The translations under genes and the position numbers were made by a program. A stretch of 64,000 nucleotides of DNA from Novosphingobium sp. GTDB taxonomy: Bacteria; Pseudomonadota; Alphaproteobacteria; Sphingomonadales; Sphingomonadaceae. The notes under the pieces are model-generated. The model was not told the origin of the DNA and ran no database searches. It saw nothing but the letters and a program-made list of their open reading frames with translations. Positions 56,219-63,940 of the stretch are shown in pieces; within the stretch, counting starts at the first letter, position 1; every line of letters starts with the position of its first letter. The stretch spans positions 62,001 through 126,000 of the forward strand of contig JAGIAR010000001.1 of the NCBI GenBank assembly GCA_017744735.1, in the 5' to 3' direction.

Positions 56219-56884
56219 TCACCAGGGATCCGGCCCCAGCGTGATGTCCTGGCTGGTGCGCGGGGGGAGCGGGGTGGGCGAATGGAGCGCCATCGGCTGC
56301 GGATCGGCGACGAACCACAGCAGCCGGTCCAGCAGATGCAGGCCGTAGGGCCAGTTGCCGATCCCCGAATCCGCGTTGATGTGGCCGATCCAGCCGGCGT
56401 CCACCAGCCGGCTGCCCCACAGACGCGCCATCTTCCGCGAATGGCCGAAGCTGGCATAGGGATCGTCCTGGCTCGCGACGAGGATGCTCGGGAAGGCGAG
56501 CTTTTCGCGCGGCATCGGGGCAAAGGCGCCAAGGCGGCCATCGAGCGGAGCACGGTCGATCACCGGCGGCGCGACCAGCAGCGCGCCCGCCACCTTGCCG
56601 TTCTCGCCCGGCCGTTCGAGCGCGTTCCACCATGCAACGGCATGGCAGCCGAGACTGTGCGCTACCAGAACGACCGGGCGATCCGCATCCGCCACCGCCT
56701 GGTTGAGCTTGTTGACCCAGGTGTTGCGGTGGGGCCGGTCCCACATGCCGAGATCGACCTTGCGGCAATCGTCGCGCTCGCGCTCCCAGATGCTCTGCCA
56801 GTGCCTGCGGCCGCTGTCGCCGAGACCGGGAACGATGAGCAGCAAGGGAGACTTACGCGGCGGATGGATTGCGGGATGGGCCAT
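56219..56884 (-). CDS. RBBP9/YdeN family alpha/beta hydrolase
   Basis: LLLIVPGLGDSGRRHWQSIWERERDDCRKVDLGMWDRPHRNTWVNKLNQAV...VVLVAHSLGCHAVAWW; SD cgaaggagcg. Confidence 0.9.
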   Translation of the reverse strand: MAHPAIHPPRKSPLLLIVPGLGDSGRRHWQSIWERERDDCRKVDLGMWDRPHRNTWVNKLNQAVADADRPVVLVAHSLGCHAVAWWNALERPGENGKVAGALLVAPPVIDRAPLDGRLGAFAPMPREKLAFPSILVASQDDPYASFGHSRKMARLWGSRLVDAGWIGHINADSGIGNWPYGLHLLDRLLWFVADPQPMALHSPTPLPPRTSQDITLGPDPW

Positions 56885-56970
56885 GATACGCTCCTTCGGG
56901 AGGGAACAGGACACTGGCGCGGTCGCCCCGTATCGCTTGAAATCGCTGGAGCGGAGCGAGTCCGCATCCA

Positions 56971-56995
56971 TTTCCCTATCTATATAGTAGGGATT
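56971..56995 (-). promoter_or_regulatory. Putative Rrf2-family operator (site A, upstream of RBBP9-type hydrolase)
   Basis: TTTCCCTATCTATATAGTAGGGATT (rc AATCCCTACTATATAGATAGGGAAA). Confidence 0.6.
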
Positions 56996-57057
56996 AAAGA
57001 TCAAGCCGGCGGATGGTTCCCGTGGCCGAGCCGCCCGGCGATTGCGGCAGAGCGTGA

Positions 57058-57082
57058 AAACCCTATCCGCATGACAGGGAAT
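57058..57082 (+). promoter_or_regulatory. Putative Rrf2-family operator (site D, upstream of SLC13 transporter)
   Basis: AAACCCTATCCGCATGACAGGGAAT; shares CCCTATC-n3-AT-n3-AGGGA with site A. Confidence 0.4.
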
Positions 57083-57134
57083 GACGCGGGCATAAAGCCG
57101 GGCTAGACGGAGTCGGCGCAGGTGAGGAGAGTGC

Positions 57135-58835
57135 ATGAGCTTCGACCAAGTGGCGATCGTCGGCATCCTGCTGGTGATGCTCGTCACCTATGCGACCGAG
57201 CGCCTGCGGGTGGAACTGGTCGCGATGGCCGGGCTTGCCGCCGGCTTCGCGCTGGGCGTGGTGCCGGCCGGCGAGGTGTTCCGCGGCTTTGCGACTCCGG
57301 CGGTGATCACCGTGGCAGAGGTTCTGCTGATCGTCTCCGCGCTTTCCTCCAGCCGCGCGGTGGACGATTTCGCGCGCCGCATCCTCGCGCGCACGCAGAG
57401 CCATACCGCGGTGCTGGCGATATTGTGCGGCACCGGGGCTTTCGTCTCGATCTTCATGAACAACATCGGCGCACTGGCGCTGATGTTTCCGGTGACCCTG
57501 TCGGTCTGCGCGCGGCTCAACATCGCGCCGGGGCGGATGCTGATGCCGCTCAGCTTCGCGACCCTGCTGACCGGCACCTGCTCGCTCACCGGAACGCCCG
57601 CGAACCTGATCGTCAACCAGTGGCTGGCGCAGGAGACCGGGCGCGGGTTCGGCTATTTCGAGCTTGCGTGGCTCGGCGGGCCGGTCGCTCTGACCGGGCT
57701 CGCCTGGCTGGTGCTCGCTGCCCCGCGCTATTTCCGCGGCATGGCGCCGGCCGCCGCGCCGTTCGATTCCGGGCCGGTGGATTTCCTGGTCGAACTGACG
57801 GTCGGCGAAGACCTCGCCGGGCTACCCCTGCCGGAGGCCGAAGAGCGTCACGCGATCGCGATTCACGGCGTGCTCCGCAACGGCGCGCATGTCTTCGCCC
57901 GGCGTGCGGAGATCGTACTCCAGCCCGGCGACCTGATCGTTGCCGAGGGAACCATGGCGCAGCTCGACGCGCTGCGCGATGCCCCGGGGGCCGAGGAGCG
58001 CGCAGAGGCAGTGGTGATGCCCGAAAGCCTTGCGATCGGATCGCGGCTGGGCGACATCCTCGCGCTCGAGGAACGCGGGGTACACATCACCGGCCTCGCA
58101 AGCCGCAGGCACCGGGTCGAAGGACGGTTCGAGGAACTGCTGATCGGTACGGGCGATGTGCTGGTTCTGAGCGGCGAGCGCGAGGCGCTGCGCGAGGCGG
58201 TGGCCGAATGCGGGCTGCTGCCCCTGTCCGGGCGCCGCCCGGCGGCGCCGCGCAGCCGCGCGATCACCAGCGTCGCGATCTTCGGAGTGGGCGTACTGGT
58301 GACCGCGCTGAACCTGCTGCCGACCGAGATCGCCTTCGGCGCGGTGGTGCTCGCGCTGGTGCTGCTCGGCAATCTCAACCTCCGCTCCGCCCTCTCCGAC
58401 ATCAACTGGACGATCGTGATCCTGCTCGCCTGCATGATCCCGCTGGGCAGCGCGGTGGAGAACACCGGCGCGGCGGCACTGATCGCCAAGGCGATCGCCG
58501 GCCAGTTGCCGAGCAATGCGCCGCTGGTGGTCGCTGCAACCATGCTGCTGGTATCGGTGACGATCACCCCGTTCATCGACAACGTCTCGACCGCGGTGAT
58601 CCTGAGCCCGATCGCGGCCGGCCTGTCGGCCCGCACCGGGGTCGCGCTGGAGCCGCTGCTGATGGCGGTGGCGGTGGGCGCCTCGCTCGACTTCCTTACC
58701 CCCTTCGGCCATCACAACAACACGGTGGTGATGGGCGCGGCGGGCTATCGCTTCCTCGACTATCCGCGATTCGGCGCGCCGTTGCTGGCGGTGTGCGTCG
58801 CGACCGGCATTTTCACCCTCGCCTGGCTCCTGTGA
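57135..58835 (+). CDS. SLC13 / anion permease with RCK_C (TrkA_C) domains
   Basis: AILCGTGAFVSIFMNNIGALALMFPVTLSVCARLNIAPGRMLMPLSFATLLTGTCSLTGTPANLIVN; two RCK_C-like central segments; 566 aa. Confidence 0.88.
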   Translation: MSFDQVAIVGILLVMLVTYATERLRVELVAMAGLAAGFALGVVPAGEVFRGFATPAVITVAEVLLIVSALSSSRAVDDFARRILARTQSHTAVLAILCGTGAFVSIFMNNIGALALMFPVTLSVCARLNIAPGRMLMPLSFATLLTGTCSLTGTPANLIVNQWLAQETGRGFGYFELAWLGGPVALTGLAWLVLAAPRYFRGMAPAAAPFDSGPVDFLVELTVGEDLAGLPLPEAEERHAIAIHGVLRNGAHVFARRAEIVLQPGDLIVAEGTMAQLDALRDAPGAEERAEAVVMPESLAIGSRLGDILALEERGVHITGLASRRHRVEGRFEELLIGTGDVLVLSGEREALREAVAECGLLPLSGRRPAAPRSRAITSVAIFGVGVLVTALNLLPTEIAFGAVVLALVLLGNLNLRSALSDINWTIVILLACMIPLGSAVENTGAAALIAKAIAGQLPSNAPLVVAATMLLVSVTITPFIDNVSTAVILSPIAAGLSARTGVALEPLLMAVAVGASLDFLTPFGHHNNTVVMGAAGYRFLDYPRFGAPLLAVCVATGIFTLAWLL

Positions 58836-58883
58836 CCGGTCCGTGAAGGGGCACAGGGTTGAAAGAAATTTTGTTTCCGGCTA

Positions 58884-58908
58884 AATACCGACTAATTCAC
58901 TAGGGAAA
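58884..58908 (+). promoter_or_regulatory. Putative Rrf2-family operator (site C, upstream of rrf2 gene)
   Basis: AATACCGACTAATTCACTAGGGAAA, ends 13 nt before the start codon. Confidence 0.55.
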
Positions 58909-58921
58909 GCGACGGACGGCA

Positions 58922-59380
58922 ATGATTTCCAACAAGGCCAAATATGCCTTCCGTGCCTTGCTGGCGATCGCCGCCGAGCCCGAGGGCAGCGCGCTTACCA
59001 GCGCCGAGATCGCGCGCCGACATGCGATCCCCCACAAGTTCCTCGAACAGATCCTGCTCGATCTCAAGAAGGCCGGCGTGCTCGACAGCCGCCGCGGCAA
59101 GACCGGCGGCTATGTTATGCTGAGACCCGCGGATACCGTGAGTTTCGGGGAAATCCTGCGCCTGTTCGAAGGGCCGCTGGCGCCGCTCCCCTGCCTTTCG
59201 CGCAACGCCTATCGCCGCTGCGAGGATTGCGAGAGCGAGGCCAATTGCGAGATCCGCCGCGAGTTCGCCCGCGCTTATGACGCAAGCCGGCTGGTGCTCG
59301 ACACGCGCACCCTCGGCGACGCGCTGGCGAACAACCCTTATGGCGGTGATATGGGGCACGAAGTGCGCAAGGCGGGATGA
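58922..59380 (+). CDS. Rrf2 family transcriptional regulator
   Basis: MISNKAKYAFRALLAIAAEPEGSALTSAEIARRHAIPHKFLEQILLDLKKAGVLDSRRGKTGGYVM...CEDCESEANCEIRREF. Confidence 0.93.
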   Translation: MISNKAKYAFRALLAIAAEPEGSALTSAEIARRHAIPHKFLEQILLDLKKAGVLDSRRGKTGGYVMLRPADTVSFGEILRLFEGPLAPLPCLSRNAYRRCEDCESEANCEIRREFARAYDASRLVLDTRTLGDALANNPYGGDMGHEVRKAG

Positions 59381-59402
59381 GCCGCAAAAAAACCCGCTTG
59401 CC

Positions 59403-59427
59403 AATCCCCACTAAATAGATAGAGATT
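59403..59427 (+). promoter_or_regulatory. Putative Rrf2-family operator (site B, upstream of yezD-like gene)
   Basis: AATCCCCACTAAATAGATAGAGATT, close match to site A reverse complement. Confidence 0.6.
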
Positions 59428-59486: not shown

Positions 59487-59678
59487 ATGATGACTTCCAG
59501 GACCAGCTTCGAGCCCACCCGGCAGACGCCCGACGCACAGCGCCTGCTGGAAGACGGCATCAACTCGGTACGCGAGGCCCTGCAGGGTCTCCGCTTCGGG
59601 AGTGTTTCGCTGACCGTCCACGAAGGCCGCGTCGTCCAGATCGACGTGACCGAGAAGCGGCGGCTGTTTCCGAACTGA
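59487..59678 (+). CDS. YezD-like (DUF2292) small protein
   Basis: LLEDGINSVREALQGLRFGSVSLTVHEGRVVQIDVTEKRRL. Confidence 0.88.
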   Translation: MMTSRTSFEPTRQTPDAQRLLEDGINSVREALQGLRFGSVSLTVHEGRVVQIDVTEKRRLFPN

Positions 59679-59802: not shown

Positions 59803-62280
59803 ATGATCTCGCGCACCACCCTCTTCGCCGGCGTTGCCCTCGGCGCCCTGCTCGCAGCCCCCGTCCTGGCTGACGAGCCAGCCGGCGACGCTTCGGCAAA
59901 GGCTTCGACCGGCGCCGCCGCGGCCGCCGACGACGGCGGCCTGCCCGACAACGTGATCATCATCACCGCGCGCCGCCGCGACGAGCAGGCGCAGGAAGTG
60001 CCGCTGGCCATCGGCGTGCTCGACCAGCGCGCGATCAACGACACCGGCGCGTCGAGCATCTACAAGATCCAGACGCTGGCCCCGAGCCTGCAGATCTACT
60101 CGCAGAACCCGCGCAACACCTCGGTCAACATCCGCGGCATCGGCCTGCCCTTCGGCCTGACCAACGACGGCGTCGATCCGGCGGTCGGAATCTATGTCGA
60201 CGATGTCTATTACGCCCGCCCGGCGAGCGCGGTGTTCGATTTCCTCGACGTCCACCAGATCGAGGTGCTGCGCGGCCCGCAAGGCACGCTCTATGGCAAG
60301 AACACCACGGCGGGCGCGATCAACATCCGCACCAACCAGCCGACCTTCGACTTCGAAGGCAATGCCGAGCTCAGCCTGGGCGACTACGATTTCAAGCAGT
60401 TCAAGGGCGCGATCTCGGGGCCGCTGAGCGATACGATCGCCGCCCGCATCGCGGTGACCGGCAGCAATCGCCGCGGCACGATCTACAACACCGCGACCGA
60501 CACCTGGGAGAACGAGCAGGACAACCTCGGCGTGCGCGGCCAGTTGCTGTTCCGGCCCAGCGACGATCTCAACATCACCCTGTCGGGCGATTTCAGCGCG
60601 CAAAGCCCGGAATGCTGCGCGACCGTCTATGTCGGCTACGGCCCGACCCAGAAGGCGGCGTCGTCGCAATATCCGGCGCTGGCGGCACTGTTCCCGGGCT
60701 ATTCGGCAACGGTCAATCCCGACCCCTTCGCCCGCGAGACCAATCTCGATGCCCCGCTCAACGCCGGCAACAAGACCGGCGGCGCCTCGCTGCGCGCGGT
60801 GTGGAACCTCGACGACCACAACACCTTCACCTCGATTACCGCCTGGCGCTTCTGGGACTGGAAGCCGGAGAACGATCGCGACTACACCGGGCTCGACATC
60901 GTCAGCAAATCGCAGAACCCGTCGCAGCAGGATCAGTACTCGCAGGAATTCCGCTGGAGCTACGACAGCAGGAAGATCGACTTCACGCTGGGCGCCTTCG
61001 GCTTCTATCAGCGGGTCGACATCCAGGGCACCGAGCAGCAGGGCTCGGATTCCGCCAAATGGAACAAGAACACCGCGCCCAATCTCGACGGGCTGACCGC
61101 GTACAACACCCAGTATCTCAAGAACACCAGCTTCGCCCTGTTCGGCCAGCTCAGCTACCACCTGACCGACCGCCTGACCCTACAGCCGGGCGTTCGCCTG
61201 AACTACGACAAGAAGGAAGGCCTCTACGATCGGACCGTGTTCGATGGGGCGGGCAACGAGGTTCCGGCCAGTGGCGGCACTTCCGCGATCAGTCCGGCCG
61301 ATGCGGCCAGCCTGCGCAAGATCTATGCGCCGCAGCATTACGAGCCGGAATTCAGCGCCTGGAACTTCAGCTACGACTTCACCGCGAGTTACCAGCTGGC
61401 GGACGATGTGCTGCTCTACGGCACCTATGCGAGGAACTTCCGCACCGGCGCGATCAACAACAACGGCGTTCCGTCCGACAGCTCGGGCAATCCGATCCTG
61501 GCGCTGGCCACGATCAAGCCGGAAAAGGTCAATCACTTCGAAGGCGGCCTGAAAACCCAGTTCTGGGGCCGCCAGATCACCTTCAACCTGTCCGCCTTCC
61601 GCACCACGATCGACAATTTCCAGACGAGCGTGGTCGCCACCGGCTCGGGCCTGCCGCGCAACGCCTATATCGCCAACGCGCAGCAGGCGCGCACCCAGGG
61701 CGTGGAAGTCGATTTCTCGATCCGTCCGAGCGAACGCTTCAACGCCTATTTCAACGGCGCCTATACCGATGCGACCTTTACCAAGTTCACCAACGCGCCG
61801 CCCCCGCCCGAACTCTCGGGCGGCACGGCGCTGGGGATCGACGGTGATGGCAATATCATCGGCACACCCAGCGCGCCGGGCACGCCGGGCGGCTTCAGCC
61901 CGCCGTTCGTGGACATTTCGGGCTCGGTGCTGCCGGGCGTCTCGAAATGGTCGTTCTCCTACGGTGCCGAAGGCAATGTGCCGGCCAAGCTGTTCGGCAA
62001 GGAAGGCGAGATCTATCTCGGCGTGGACGGCAACTACCGTTCGAAATTTTCCTCGAACCCCACCCCCTCGATCTACACCTGGGTCGACGGCTACAATCTG
62101 ACCAACTTCCGCCTCGGTTTCCGTGCGGCTGACGGGTTCAACGTCTACGGCTGGGTCCGCAATGCGTTCGACGCGCATTATTACGACCAACTCGTGCTGG
62201 GGCCGAGCAACACCGGCCTGATCGCCGGCTTCCTCGGCGATCCGCGCACCTGGGGCGGCACGGTCAGGGTAGAATTCTGA
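59803..62280 (+). CDS. TonB-dependent receptor
   Basis: caggaggaaccaATG; plug KIQTLAPSLQIYSQNPRNTSVNIRGIGLPFGLTNDGVDPAVGIYVDDVYYARPASAVFDFLDVHQIEVLRGPQGTLYGKNTTAGAINI; terminal TWGGTVRVEF. Confidence 0.95.
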   Translation: MISRTTLFAGVALGALLAAPVLADEPAGDASAKASTGAAAAADDGGLPDNVIIITARRRDEQAQEVPLAIGVLDQRAINDTGASSIYKIQTLAPSLQIYSQNPRNTSVNIRGIGLPFGLTNDGVDPAVGIYVDDVYYARPASAVFDFLDVHQIEVLRGPQGTLYGKNTTAGAINIRTNQPTFDFEGNAELSLGDYDFKQFKGAISGPLSDTIAARIAVTGSNRRGTIYNTATDTWENEQDNLGVRGQLLFRPSDDLNITLSGDFSAQSPECCATVYVGYGPTQKAASSQYPALAALFPGYSATVNPDPFARETNLDAPLNAGNKTGGASLRAVWNLDDHNTFTSITAWRFWDWKPENDRDYTGLDIVSKSQNPSQQDQYSQEFRWSYDSRKIDFTLGAFGFYQRVDIQGTEQQGSDSAKWNKNTAPNLDGLTAYNTQYLKNTSFALFGQLSYHLTDRLTLQPGVRLNYDKKEGLYDRTVFDGAGNEVPASGGTSAISPADAASLRKIYAPQHYEPEFSAWNFSYDFTASYQLADDVLLYGTYARNFRTGAINNNGVPSDSSGNPILALATIKPEKVNHFEGGLKTQFWGRQITFNLSAFRTTIDNFQTSVVATGSGLPRNAYIANAQQARTQGVEVDFSIRPSERFNAYFNGAYTDATFTKFTNAPPPPELSGGTALGIDGDGNIIGTPSAPGTPGGFSPPFVDISGSVLPGVSKWSFSYGAEGNVPAKLFGKEGEIYLGVDGNYRSKFSSNPTPSIYTWVDGYNLTNFRLGFRAADGFNVYGWVRNAFDAHYYDQLVLGPSNTGLIAGFLGDPRTWGGTVRVEF

Positions 62281-62326: not shown

Positions 62327-63106
62327 ATGTTCGATTTATCCGCACTCAGCCCCGCCGACATCCTGCCGTTCGTTCTGGTGGGATTCGCGGCGCAGATCGT
62401 GGACGGGGCGCTGGGCATGGCTTTTGGGGTCCTTACCCAGACGATGCTCGTGAGCGTGCTCGGCGTCCCACCGGCGACGGCTTCGGCCAGTGTCCACCTG
62501 GTCGAGCTGTTCACCACCGGGGCGTCGGGCGCGAGCCACATCGCCCACCGCAACGTCGATTGGAAGCTGTTCTGGCGGCTCGCCCCGACCGGGATCGTCG
62601 GCGGGGCGGCAGGCGCCTATCTGCTCTCGAGCATCGACGCGAGCGCGGCCAAGCCGTTCGTGATGATGTATCTCGCCGCGATCGGGGTCTACCTCGGCTA
62701 CAAGGCGCTCAGGCTCAACACCGCGCCCCATTTCAGGGATCCGATGATGACCGCGCCGCTGGCGGCAGCGGGCGGTTTCCTCGACGCGGCGGGCGGCGGC
62801 GGCTGGGGCCCGGTCGTGACCTCCAACCTGCTGGTCCAGGGCGGCGATCCGCGCCGGACGGTCGGGACGGTCAACTCGGCCGAATTCCTCGTGACGCTGA
62901 CGATCTCGGCGACCTTCCTGCTGACGCTCGGCTGGGCGGCGTTTACGCAGGCCGTGATCGGGCTGATCATCGGTGGCGTGGTCGCGGCCCCGTTCGGCGC
63001 CTATTTCGCCAAGCGGCTTCACCCGCGTGCGCTGCTCGGCGCGGTGTCGGCGCTGCTGATCGCGACCAGCATCTTCACCATCTACAGGTCGTGGCCGATC
63101 CTCTGA
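62327..63106 (+). CDS. Sulfite exporter TauE/SafE family protein
   Basis: FVLVGFAAQIVDGALGMAFGVLTQTMLVSVLGVPPATASASVHLVELFTTGASGASH. Confidence 0.92.
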   Translation: MFDLSALSPADILPFVLVGFAAQIVDGALGMAFGVLTQTMLVSVLGVPPATASASVHLVELFTTGASGASHIAHRNVDWKLFWRLAPTGIVGGAAGAYLLSSIDASAAKPFVMMYLAAIGVYLGYKALRLNTAPHFRDPMMTAPLAAAGGFLDAAGGGGWGPVVTSNLLVQGGDPRRTVGTVNSAEFLVTLTISATFLLTLGWAAFTQAVIGLIIGGVVAAPFGAYFAKRLHPRALLGAVSALLIATSIFTIYRSWPIL

Positions 63107-63136: not shown

Positions 63137-63940
63137 ATGGACGGCAATCTCATCACGATCTGCCTGCTGACGGCGGCGATCAACCTGATCGGCGCGCTGG
63201 CCTATGCCGCGCGCATCGCCGGGGTGCGCACGCGGCGGATCGCGATGAGCTTCGCGCTGTTCAACGTGCTGATCCTGGGCTCGCGGCTTGCAAACGGCTT
63301 CCTCGGGCCGCTGCTGGCCAAGCGGGTCGAGCGCGCGATCGCGAGCGGCGGCACACACGACCTCAAGCTCGATTTCCACCTGATGCTCGCTTCGTCGAGC
63401 GCGGCGGTGCTGCTCGGCATCATTCTCGTCCCGACCGGCCAACGGATCTTCTCGGTCGCGATCGAGAAGCTCAAGCATTCGCGCTCGCTGGCGAAATTGC
63501 TGCTCAGCAGCGCCACGCCCTCGGGCGCGCGAGTGATCTACCAGTCGCTCGCCTTCCCGCGCCTGCATCTCGCCCATGCCTTGGCCAAACCGGGCGAACT
63601 CGGCTGGGGGATCGTGATCGCCAACTGCCTGGCGCAGGCGGTGCTGGCGGTGGGGGTGTTCGCTTCGATCTATGCCGGCTATCTCAATCCCGAATACCGG
63701 GTCACCGCCTCGCAGCTCAGCTCGGTGATCAACGGCTTCGCGACCATCCTGCTGTTCGCCTTCATCGACCCGCATCTTTCGGTCATCACCGACGACGCGG
63801 TCGACGGGCGAGTGAGCGAAAGCGCGTTCCGCCGGGTGGTGGTGTGGATTTCGGCCAGCCGCCTCGCGGGCACGGTGCTGGCACAGCTGTTGTTCCTCCC
63901 CGCCGCCCAGGCGGTGGCGTGGATCTCGAACTACGTGTGA
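63137..63940 (+). CDS. Amj-like lipid II flippase family protein (DUF2837)
   Basis: INLIGALAYAARIAGVRTRRIAMSFALFNVLILGSRLANGFLGPLLAKRVE...LSSVINGFATILLFAFIDPHLSVITDD...ISASRLAGTVLAQLLFLPAA. Confidence 0.8.
   Translation: MDGNLITICLLTAAINLIGALAYAARIAGVRTRRIAMSFALFNVLILGSRLANGFLGPLLAKRVERAIASGGTHDLKLDFHLMLASSSAAVLLGIILVPTGQRIFSVAIEKLKHSRSLAKLLLSSATPSGARVIYQSLAFPRLHLAHALAKPGELGWGIVIANCLAQAVLAVGVFASIYAGYLNPEYRVTASQLSSVINGFATILLFAFIDPHLSVITDDAVDGRVSESAFRRVVVWISASRLAGTVLAQLLFLPAAQAVAWISNYV

Follow-up and report, generated by a model that had tools for sequence, protein, structure and literature searches.

The promoters around an Rrf2 regulator gene in Novosphingobium sp. contain similar sequences, which raises the question of whether these are operators of that regulator and to which signal the genes behind them respond. 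The window analyzed here, a stretch of 64,000 nucleotides, had been described in a first-pass annotation as carrying four intergenic copies of a ~25-bp motif that form a local Rrf2 regulon. Judging from the sequence, three of the copies (A, B, and C) are very probably operators bound by the Rrf2 protein whose gene they surround. This protein would be a CymR-like repressor of sulfur acquisition that acts on two distant operons as well.

Operator A (56971..56995, minus strand) is located 84 nt upstream of a gene for an RBBP9-type serine hydrolase (56219..56887, minus strand; Pfam Ser_hydrolase, E=2e-56), which is operator-linked in several genera. The gene for the Rrf2-family regulator (152 aa; 58922..59380, plus strand; Pfam Rrf2, E=4e-35) has a predicted promoter, TTGAAA-N17-TAAATA (58859..58887, plus strand), overlapped by operator C (58884..58908, plus strand), which covers the -10 box and the predicted transcription start. 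An SLC13/CitMHS-type anion permease with TrkA_C domains (57135..58835, plus strand) is encoded beside rrf2 in nearly all close orthologs and is likely a sulfate importer. A weak and doubtful candidate, site D (57058..57082, minus strand), lies 5′ of this permease gene. Operator B (59403..59427, plus strand) precedes the gene for a YezD/OscA-like small protein (DUF2292; 59487..59678, plus strand; Pfam DUF2292, E=2e-16), followed by genes for a TonB-dependent receptor (59803..62280, plus strand), found behind yezD in several relatives too, a TauE/SafE-type permease 3′ of it (62327..63106, plus strand), and an Amj-type protein (63137..63940, plus strand; Pfam Amj, E=6e-86).

The motif is an inverted repeat of 25 bp, WWTCYCTAY-N7-RTAGRGAWW. 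The consensus of A, B, and C, AATNCCNACTWNNTNNNTAGGGAWW, matched the window at exactly these three sites when up to 3 mismatches were allowed; shuffling gave an expectation of 0.01, and 3 matches were reached in 0 of 100 shuffles. In the whole 3.53-Mb genome the same consensus returned these three places and one more, E (C10:422478-422502). The palindromic pattern WWTCYCTAYNNNNNNNRTAGRGAWW (up to 1 mismatch) returned exactly A, B, E, and a further site F (C11:265934-265958), with 0 matches in the control and operator A as its sole 0-mismatch match in the genome. The random genome-wide spread of hits that would have spoken against the motif was thus not observed, A, B, C, E, and F being the only places returned by the patterns used. 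Both patterns were composed once the sites were already known; a position weight matrix (PWM) built only from sites of other genera is therefore the independent and fairer test. Its four best scores in the window were those of A (33.5), B (32.9), C (18.6), and D (16.2), and the next best was 5.1.

All four sequences of the first-pass annotation are present at the positions it gave, and D is the weakest of them, as it had noted (16.2 against 18.6-33.5). Conservation at orthologous promoters separates D from the rest: A, B, and C recur across Sphingomonadales and are kept in both genomes of the same genus (L034, L035), with operator C conserved across L034-L038, but no site scoring at least 10 with the PWM was found at the D position in L034 or L035. 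D is doubtful for this reason, despite its fourth rank; it appears to be a real sequence outlier whose membership in the regulon is not secure, and A, B, and C can be taken as confirmed sites as far as sequence comparison goes. Weak sites 5′ of SLC13 and Amj genes are present in several other genera. A D-like palindrome, TTTCCCTGTTATGCCCGTAGGGAAT (G113, G046), was considered as support for D and rejected, as it stands 5′ of a ParB/methyltransferase-like gene and not of sulfur genes.

The two distant sites extend the regulon beyond the locus: the grouping around rrf2 proposed at first is supported, and its restriction to the neighborhood is not. Site E lies 5′ of a TonB-MFS-TauD-sulfatase-DUF1254-radical SAM/SPASM operon, plausibly serving the scavenging of sulfate esters and sulfonates. 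Site F adjoins a second CymR-like Rrf2 gene (C11:264467-264877), whose product keeps the four cysteines discussed below. Besides this paralog, which shows about 40% identity, the genome studied and several relatives encode a third protein of the Rrf2 family.

The order SLC13-rrf2-cysPTWA-yezD, often with tonB next, was observed in many related genomes; the close relatives known by name are Altererythrobacter sp. CC-YST694, Sphingomonadales bacterium 63-6, and Croceicoccus estronivorus. In relatives, rrf2 is followed by transporter genes that encode a solute-binding protein, two permeases, and an ATPase, and the name cysPTWA is given from this arrangement alone. In the genus of the window (G000, G071, G140) cysPTWA is absent beside rrf2 and the SLC13 permease is retained; the best CysA relative in the genome studied shows 48% identity. 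Site B, whose equivalent in most relatives stands 5′ of cysPTWA, is therefore found here directly before yezD-tonB-tauE-amj. A site behind rrf2 scored at least 15 in 25 of the 26 orthologous rrf2 loci, and in 17 of 26, window included, a TTGnnn-N17-TAAA promoter had its -10 box overlapped by the site before rrf2. The operator before cysP or yezD was found immediately behind a TTGC -35-like element. The pattern was present in 30 of 75 genomes with a CymR-like Rrf2 and in 10 of 76 without one (Fisher p=2e-4), or in 24 of 69 against 10 of 76 when the genomes of the training set were left out (p=0.003), p-values that are indicative only because the genomes are related. In the 10 genomes without a CymR-like Rrf2 the pattern matched 13 places, at least some of which represent another motif, located 5′ of a ParB/methyltransferase-like gene. 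Many of the more distant Rrf2 homologs (43-49% identity; L041-L046, L049-L052) had no such site nearby. With sites on both sides of rrf2 and this enrichment across genomes, control of the divergent genes and of itself by one regulator, as suggested at the outset, is the best reading of the sequence.

The sites found in relatives precede rrf2, cysPTWA-yezD, RBBP9-cysK-GATase, Amj, and TonB/sulfatase/TauD operons. RBBP9 genes are preceded by a site in the window and in L090-L092, L099, L079, L081, L084, L085, and L094, and in L079, L081, and L084 the gene belongs to an RBBP9-cysK-GATase cluster. Sites were also found before Amj in L084 (G063) and before TonB-MFS-TauD-type operons in L057, L080, L082, and L083. 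Among genomes outside the training set, matches were located before cysP (L206, L209), before TonB receptor genes (L196, L198, L200, L203-L205), near a TauE-like gene (L210), and between rrf2 and a gene read by eye as serine acetyltransferase (L207).

The regulator belongs to the Rrf2 family (121 bits for the domain; Pfam gathering score 30). CymR was the best-scoring of the specific NCBIfam models, at 62.1 bits with an equivalog cut-off of 195, and solved CymR structures were among the best matches; the scores for IscR (59.3 bits; cut-off 207.55) and NsrR (46.8 bits; cut-off 182) were also below their thresholds. Like CymR of Bacillus and Staphylococcus, the protein combines an Rrf2 fold with sulfur/cysteine targets, including cysK behind the operator in relatives. 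It differs in host phylum and in its target set (TonB receptors, sulfatases, RBBP9, and Amj), and in four invariant cysteines (91, 100, 103, and 109; CX8CX2CX5C) in the aligned alphaproteobacterial members. The CymR-CysK complex senses O-acetylserine, and the RBBP9-cysK-GATase cluster adjoining the paralog in G071 and G140 provides the one genomic hint in that direction. IscR is an Rrf2 protein with an inverted-repeat operator of about 25 bp as well, with the cysteine spacing CX5CX5C and not the CX8CX2CX5C found here. CymR binds no Fe-S cluster (PMC9338935) and has CysK as a partner (PMC2940859). The lack of candidate Fe-S ligands that goes with CymR does not apply to the sphingomonad proteins, given their four cysteines, and a metal or Fe-S cofactor may be inferred for them. 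By the tests made, this Rrf2 group would be CymR-like in its targets, yet neither CymR nor IscR.

We propose that with sufficient sulfur (cysteine or a derivative) an Rrf2 dimer would occupy the inverted repeat of 25 bp within the core promoters of rrf2, yezD-tonB-tauE-amj, and the RBBP9 hydrolase gene, and at two distant operons, TonB-MFS-TauD-sulfatase-rSAM/SPASM and a GATase gene, and would block RNA polymerase; upon sulfur shortage the repressor would be released, with rrf2 being autorepressed. Structurally characterized Rrf2 proteins were crystallized on operators of 23-39 bp (PMC9338935). The local Rrf2 as the binder, repression as the sign, and sulfur status as the signal are what we infer from the sites, their conservation, their gene neighbors, and their position within core promoters. 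Genes for sulfur metabolism are prominent among the targets (cysPTWA, cysK, the sulfatase operon, TauD, TauE, and the DUF2292 protein). RBBP9 and Amj, which have no obvious sulfur role, count against the model. In Pseudomonas, the OscA/sbp-cysTWA sulfur-starvation clusters join the gene for a small DUF2292 protein to those for a sulfate ABC transporter. The sphingomonad loci share this pairing and differ in the Rrf2 operator, in the missing close CysA in the genus studied, and in a DUF2292 protein below the NCBIfam OscA cut-off (43.8 bits; cut-off 85).

Lying between genes and rich in AT within a GC-rich genome, the sites look as chance resemblance among AT-rich promoter sequences would make them. 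For A-C this explanation is refuted by the 0.01 matches expected in the window, the lack of any place in 3.53 Mb beyond these and E and F, and the conservation across genera, leaving it a negligible probability overall; for D it may hold. An IscR-type Fe-S or iron operator is highly improbable. The first-pass annotation had likened site C to IscR sites; its half-site CCGACTA resembles the IscR type-1 half-site, the regulator has a cysteine cluster, and well-scoring PWM palindromes precede iscS-iscU-rrf2 in Clostridia. That likeness is superficial, because the regulator scores 59 bits where the IscR equivalog cut-off is 207, and because the alphaproteobacterial sites that were inspected had no isc or suf gene behind them; the targets there are sulfate, sulfonate, and sulfate-ester genes.

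Two other readings keep sulfur control and change the actor or the sign. The second and third Rrf2 proteins could bind some of the sites, with E and F as candidate targets of the paralog. That the second CymR-like Rrf2 is the main binder, leaving the local protein a lesser or another role, seems unlikely: it keeps the four cysteines and is encoded beside operator F and, in G071/G140, beside RBBP9-cysK-GATase with operators, but A-C flank the local rrf2, this flanking is retained across genera, and G063 and G135 have sites and no paralog-like protein among the matches listed. Activation by the local Rrf2 at some sites, such as A and B, in place of simple repression is rather unlikely as well. 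Both sites stand behind TTG-rich -35-like elements and their -10 matches are weak; at site A, a TTTAAT -10 box 17 nt from a -35 element was dropped for that weakness. Operator C, however, overlaps the -10 box. Repressors typically bind within the core promoter, and the placement of C appears to be that of an autorepressor. Repression by the local Rrf2 is the reading retained here. No sphingomonad Rrf2 sulfur regulon was found in the literature searched, and a survey of proteobacterial regulons contained no mention of Rrf2, sulfur, or cysteine (PMC5343134). Rrf2-type repression by sulfur or cysteine is the known part of this system; the family-wide sphingomonad variant of the regulon is new.

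The most novel part is an RNA element behind the same operators. A conserved SAM-II-like leader follows operator E ahead of the TonB gene; the genome has two copies, at E and F (C10:422325-422439 and C11:265784-265894, minus strand). The leader RNA was also seen in L057 and L160, and a model (R1) was built. The P1 stem and the conserved SAM-II core elements occur in order, and the leader shares CCGnGG..UUUGA..GCUUGC..CCnCGUUA..GCUAAAG with SAM-II. It differs from SAM-II in a two-base deletion in the core, in its sulfur-scavenging operons, and in standing nearly always behind an Rrf2 operator. No Rfam family reached its cut-off with this leader; SAM_alpha (RF00521) aligned over the whole model (1-79) at 14.1 bits, below the gathering score of 36. 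With up to 2 mismatches, the core CCGCGTTACCAACNGCTAAAG was matched 31 times, in 23 of the 151 genomes of the family. In 28 of the 30 loci examined, a site scoring at least 12 with the other-genera PWM was located 35-150 nt 5′ of the leader, against 1 of 623 control windows. The same was found in 12 of 12 further loci with convincing RNA matches, with one site at 169 nt and at least one locus (L186) from an already sampled genome. An arrangement of operator and SAM-II-like leader was found neither in Rfam nor in the literature searched.

Genes 3′ of the leader include those for TonB receptors, GATase, TauD, and RBBP9. The core is invariant across the sequences. RNAalifold returned only the P1 stem and a 2-bp stem for the alignment of 30 sequences, with no covariation, since P1 is invariant in all of them. 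Individual folds gave a 3′ hairpin in 30 of 30 despite changed sequence, and in most a hairpin over the Shine-Dalgarno region. A short ORF after the leader was read by eye in several loci (MRMTKTV*, MRMHTDKF*). In L102 and L108, an ORF of ~80 codons, possibly encoding a membrane peptide, is located between the leader RNA and RBBP9. The SAM-II element of S. meliloti metA has a GAGG Shine-Dalgarno sequence and an early AUG too (PMC9373788).

In the window, the leader of the RBBP9 gene (56890..56936, minus strand) consists of a hairpin, GATAC..GGCGACCGCGCC..GTGTC, and a second hairpin expected to cover the ribosome-binding site. Aligned with L090-L092 and the operon-E leaders, it is similar to the SAM-II-like leader in the 3′ half only, with the aptamer core missing, and it was assigned to no Rfam family. 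Locus L183 has a degenerate aptamer before RBBP9. The degenerate aptamer there and the 3′ hairpins alone in the window suggest that the element has decayed at RBBP9. At gathering level, the sole Rfam match in the window was a tRNA; matches to snoRNA, miRNA, and sRNA families at lax thresholds were judged to be chance.

A two-layer control of sulfur genes in sphingomonads is conceivable, and we put it forward tentatively, at somewhat less than an even chance. The four-cysteine Rrf2 would act at the promoter, and a divergent SAM-II-like riboswitch, possibly with a changed ligand preference, would act on translation of scavenging operons through the Shine-Dalgarno hairpin and the short upstream ORF; the RBBP9 hydrolase and Amj would then be part of the sulfur response. 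Sphingomonadales include degraders used in bioremediation, and the regulator is a concrete genome-wide candidate for controlling their response to sulfur starvation, and its 25-bp operator is accessible to direct testing. A tie to sulfur limitation offers a route to the function of RBBP9-type hydrolases, Amj, and DUF2292 proteins. The conserved, unannotated leader makes its ligand and the two-layer logic testable.

Related palindromes were observed in other settings. An operator variant with CTCAAC-type half-sites is present in some genera (L141, L142, L162, L169, L180) and could be a sign that the paralog Rrf2 binds there. Palindromes of the type TTCCCTGTT-N6-GTAGGGAA occur 5′ of a ParB/DNA-methyltransferase-like gene in L191 and L193 (G113, G046) and in weaker form in L089 (G063). 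In uncultured Clostridia (L118-L123), the palindrome AATTCCTATGAATTTAGTAGGAATA before iscS-iscU-rrf2 is very close to the sphingomonad operator.
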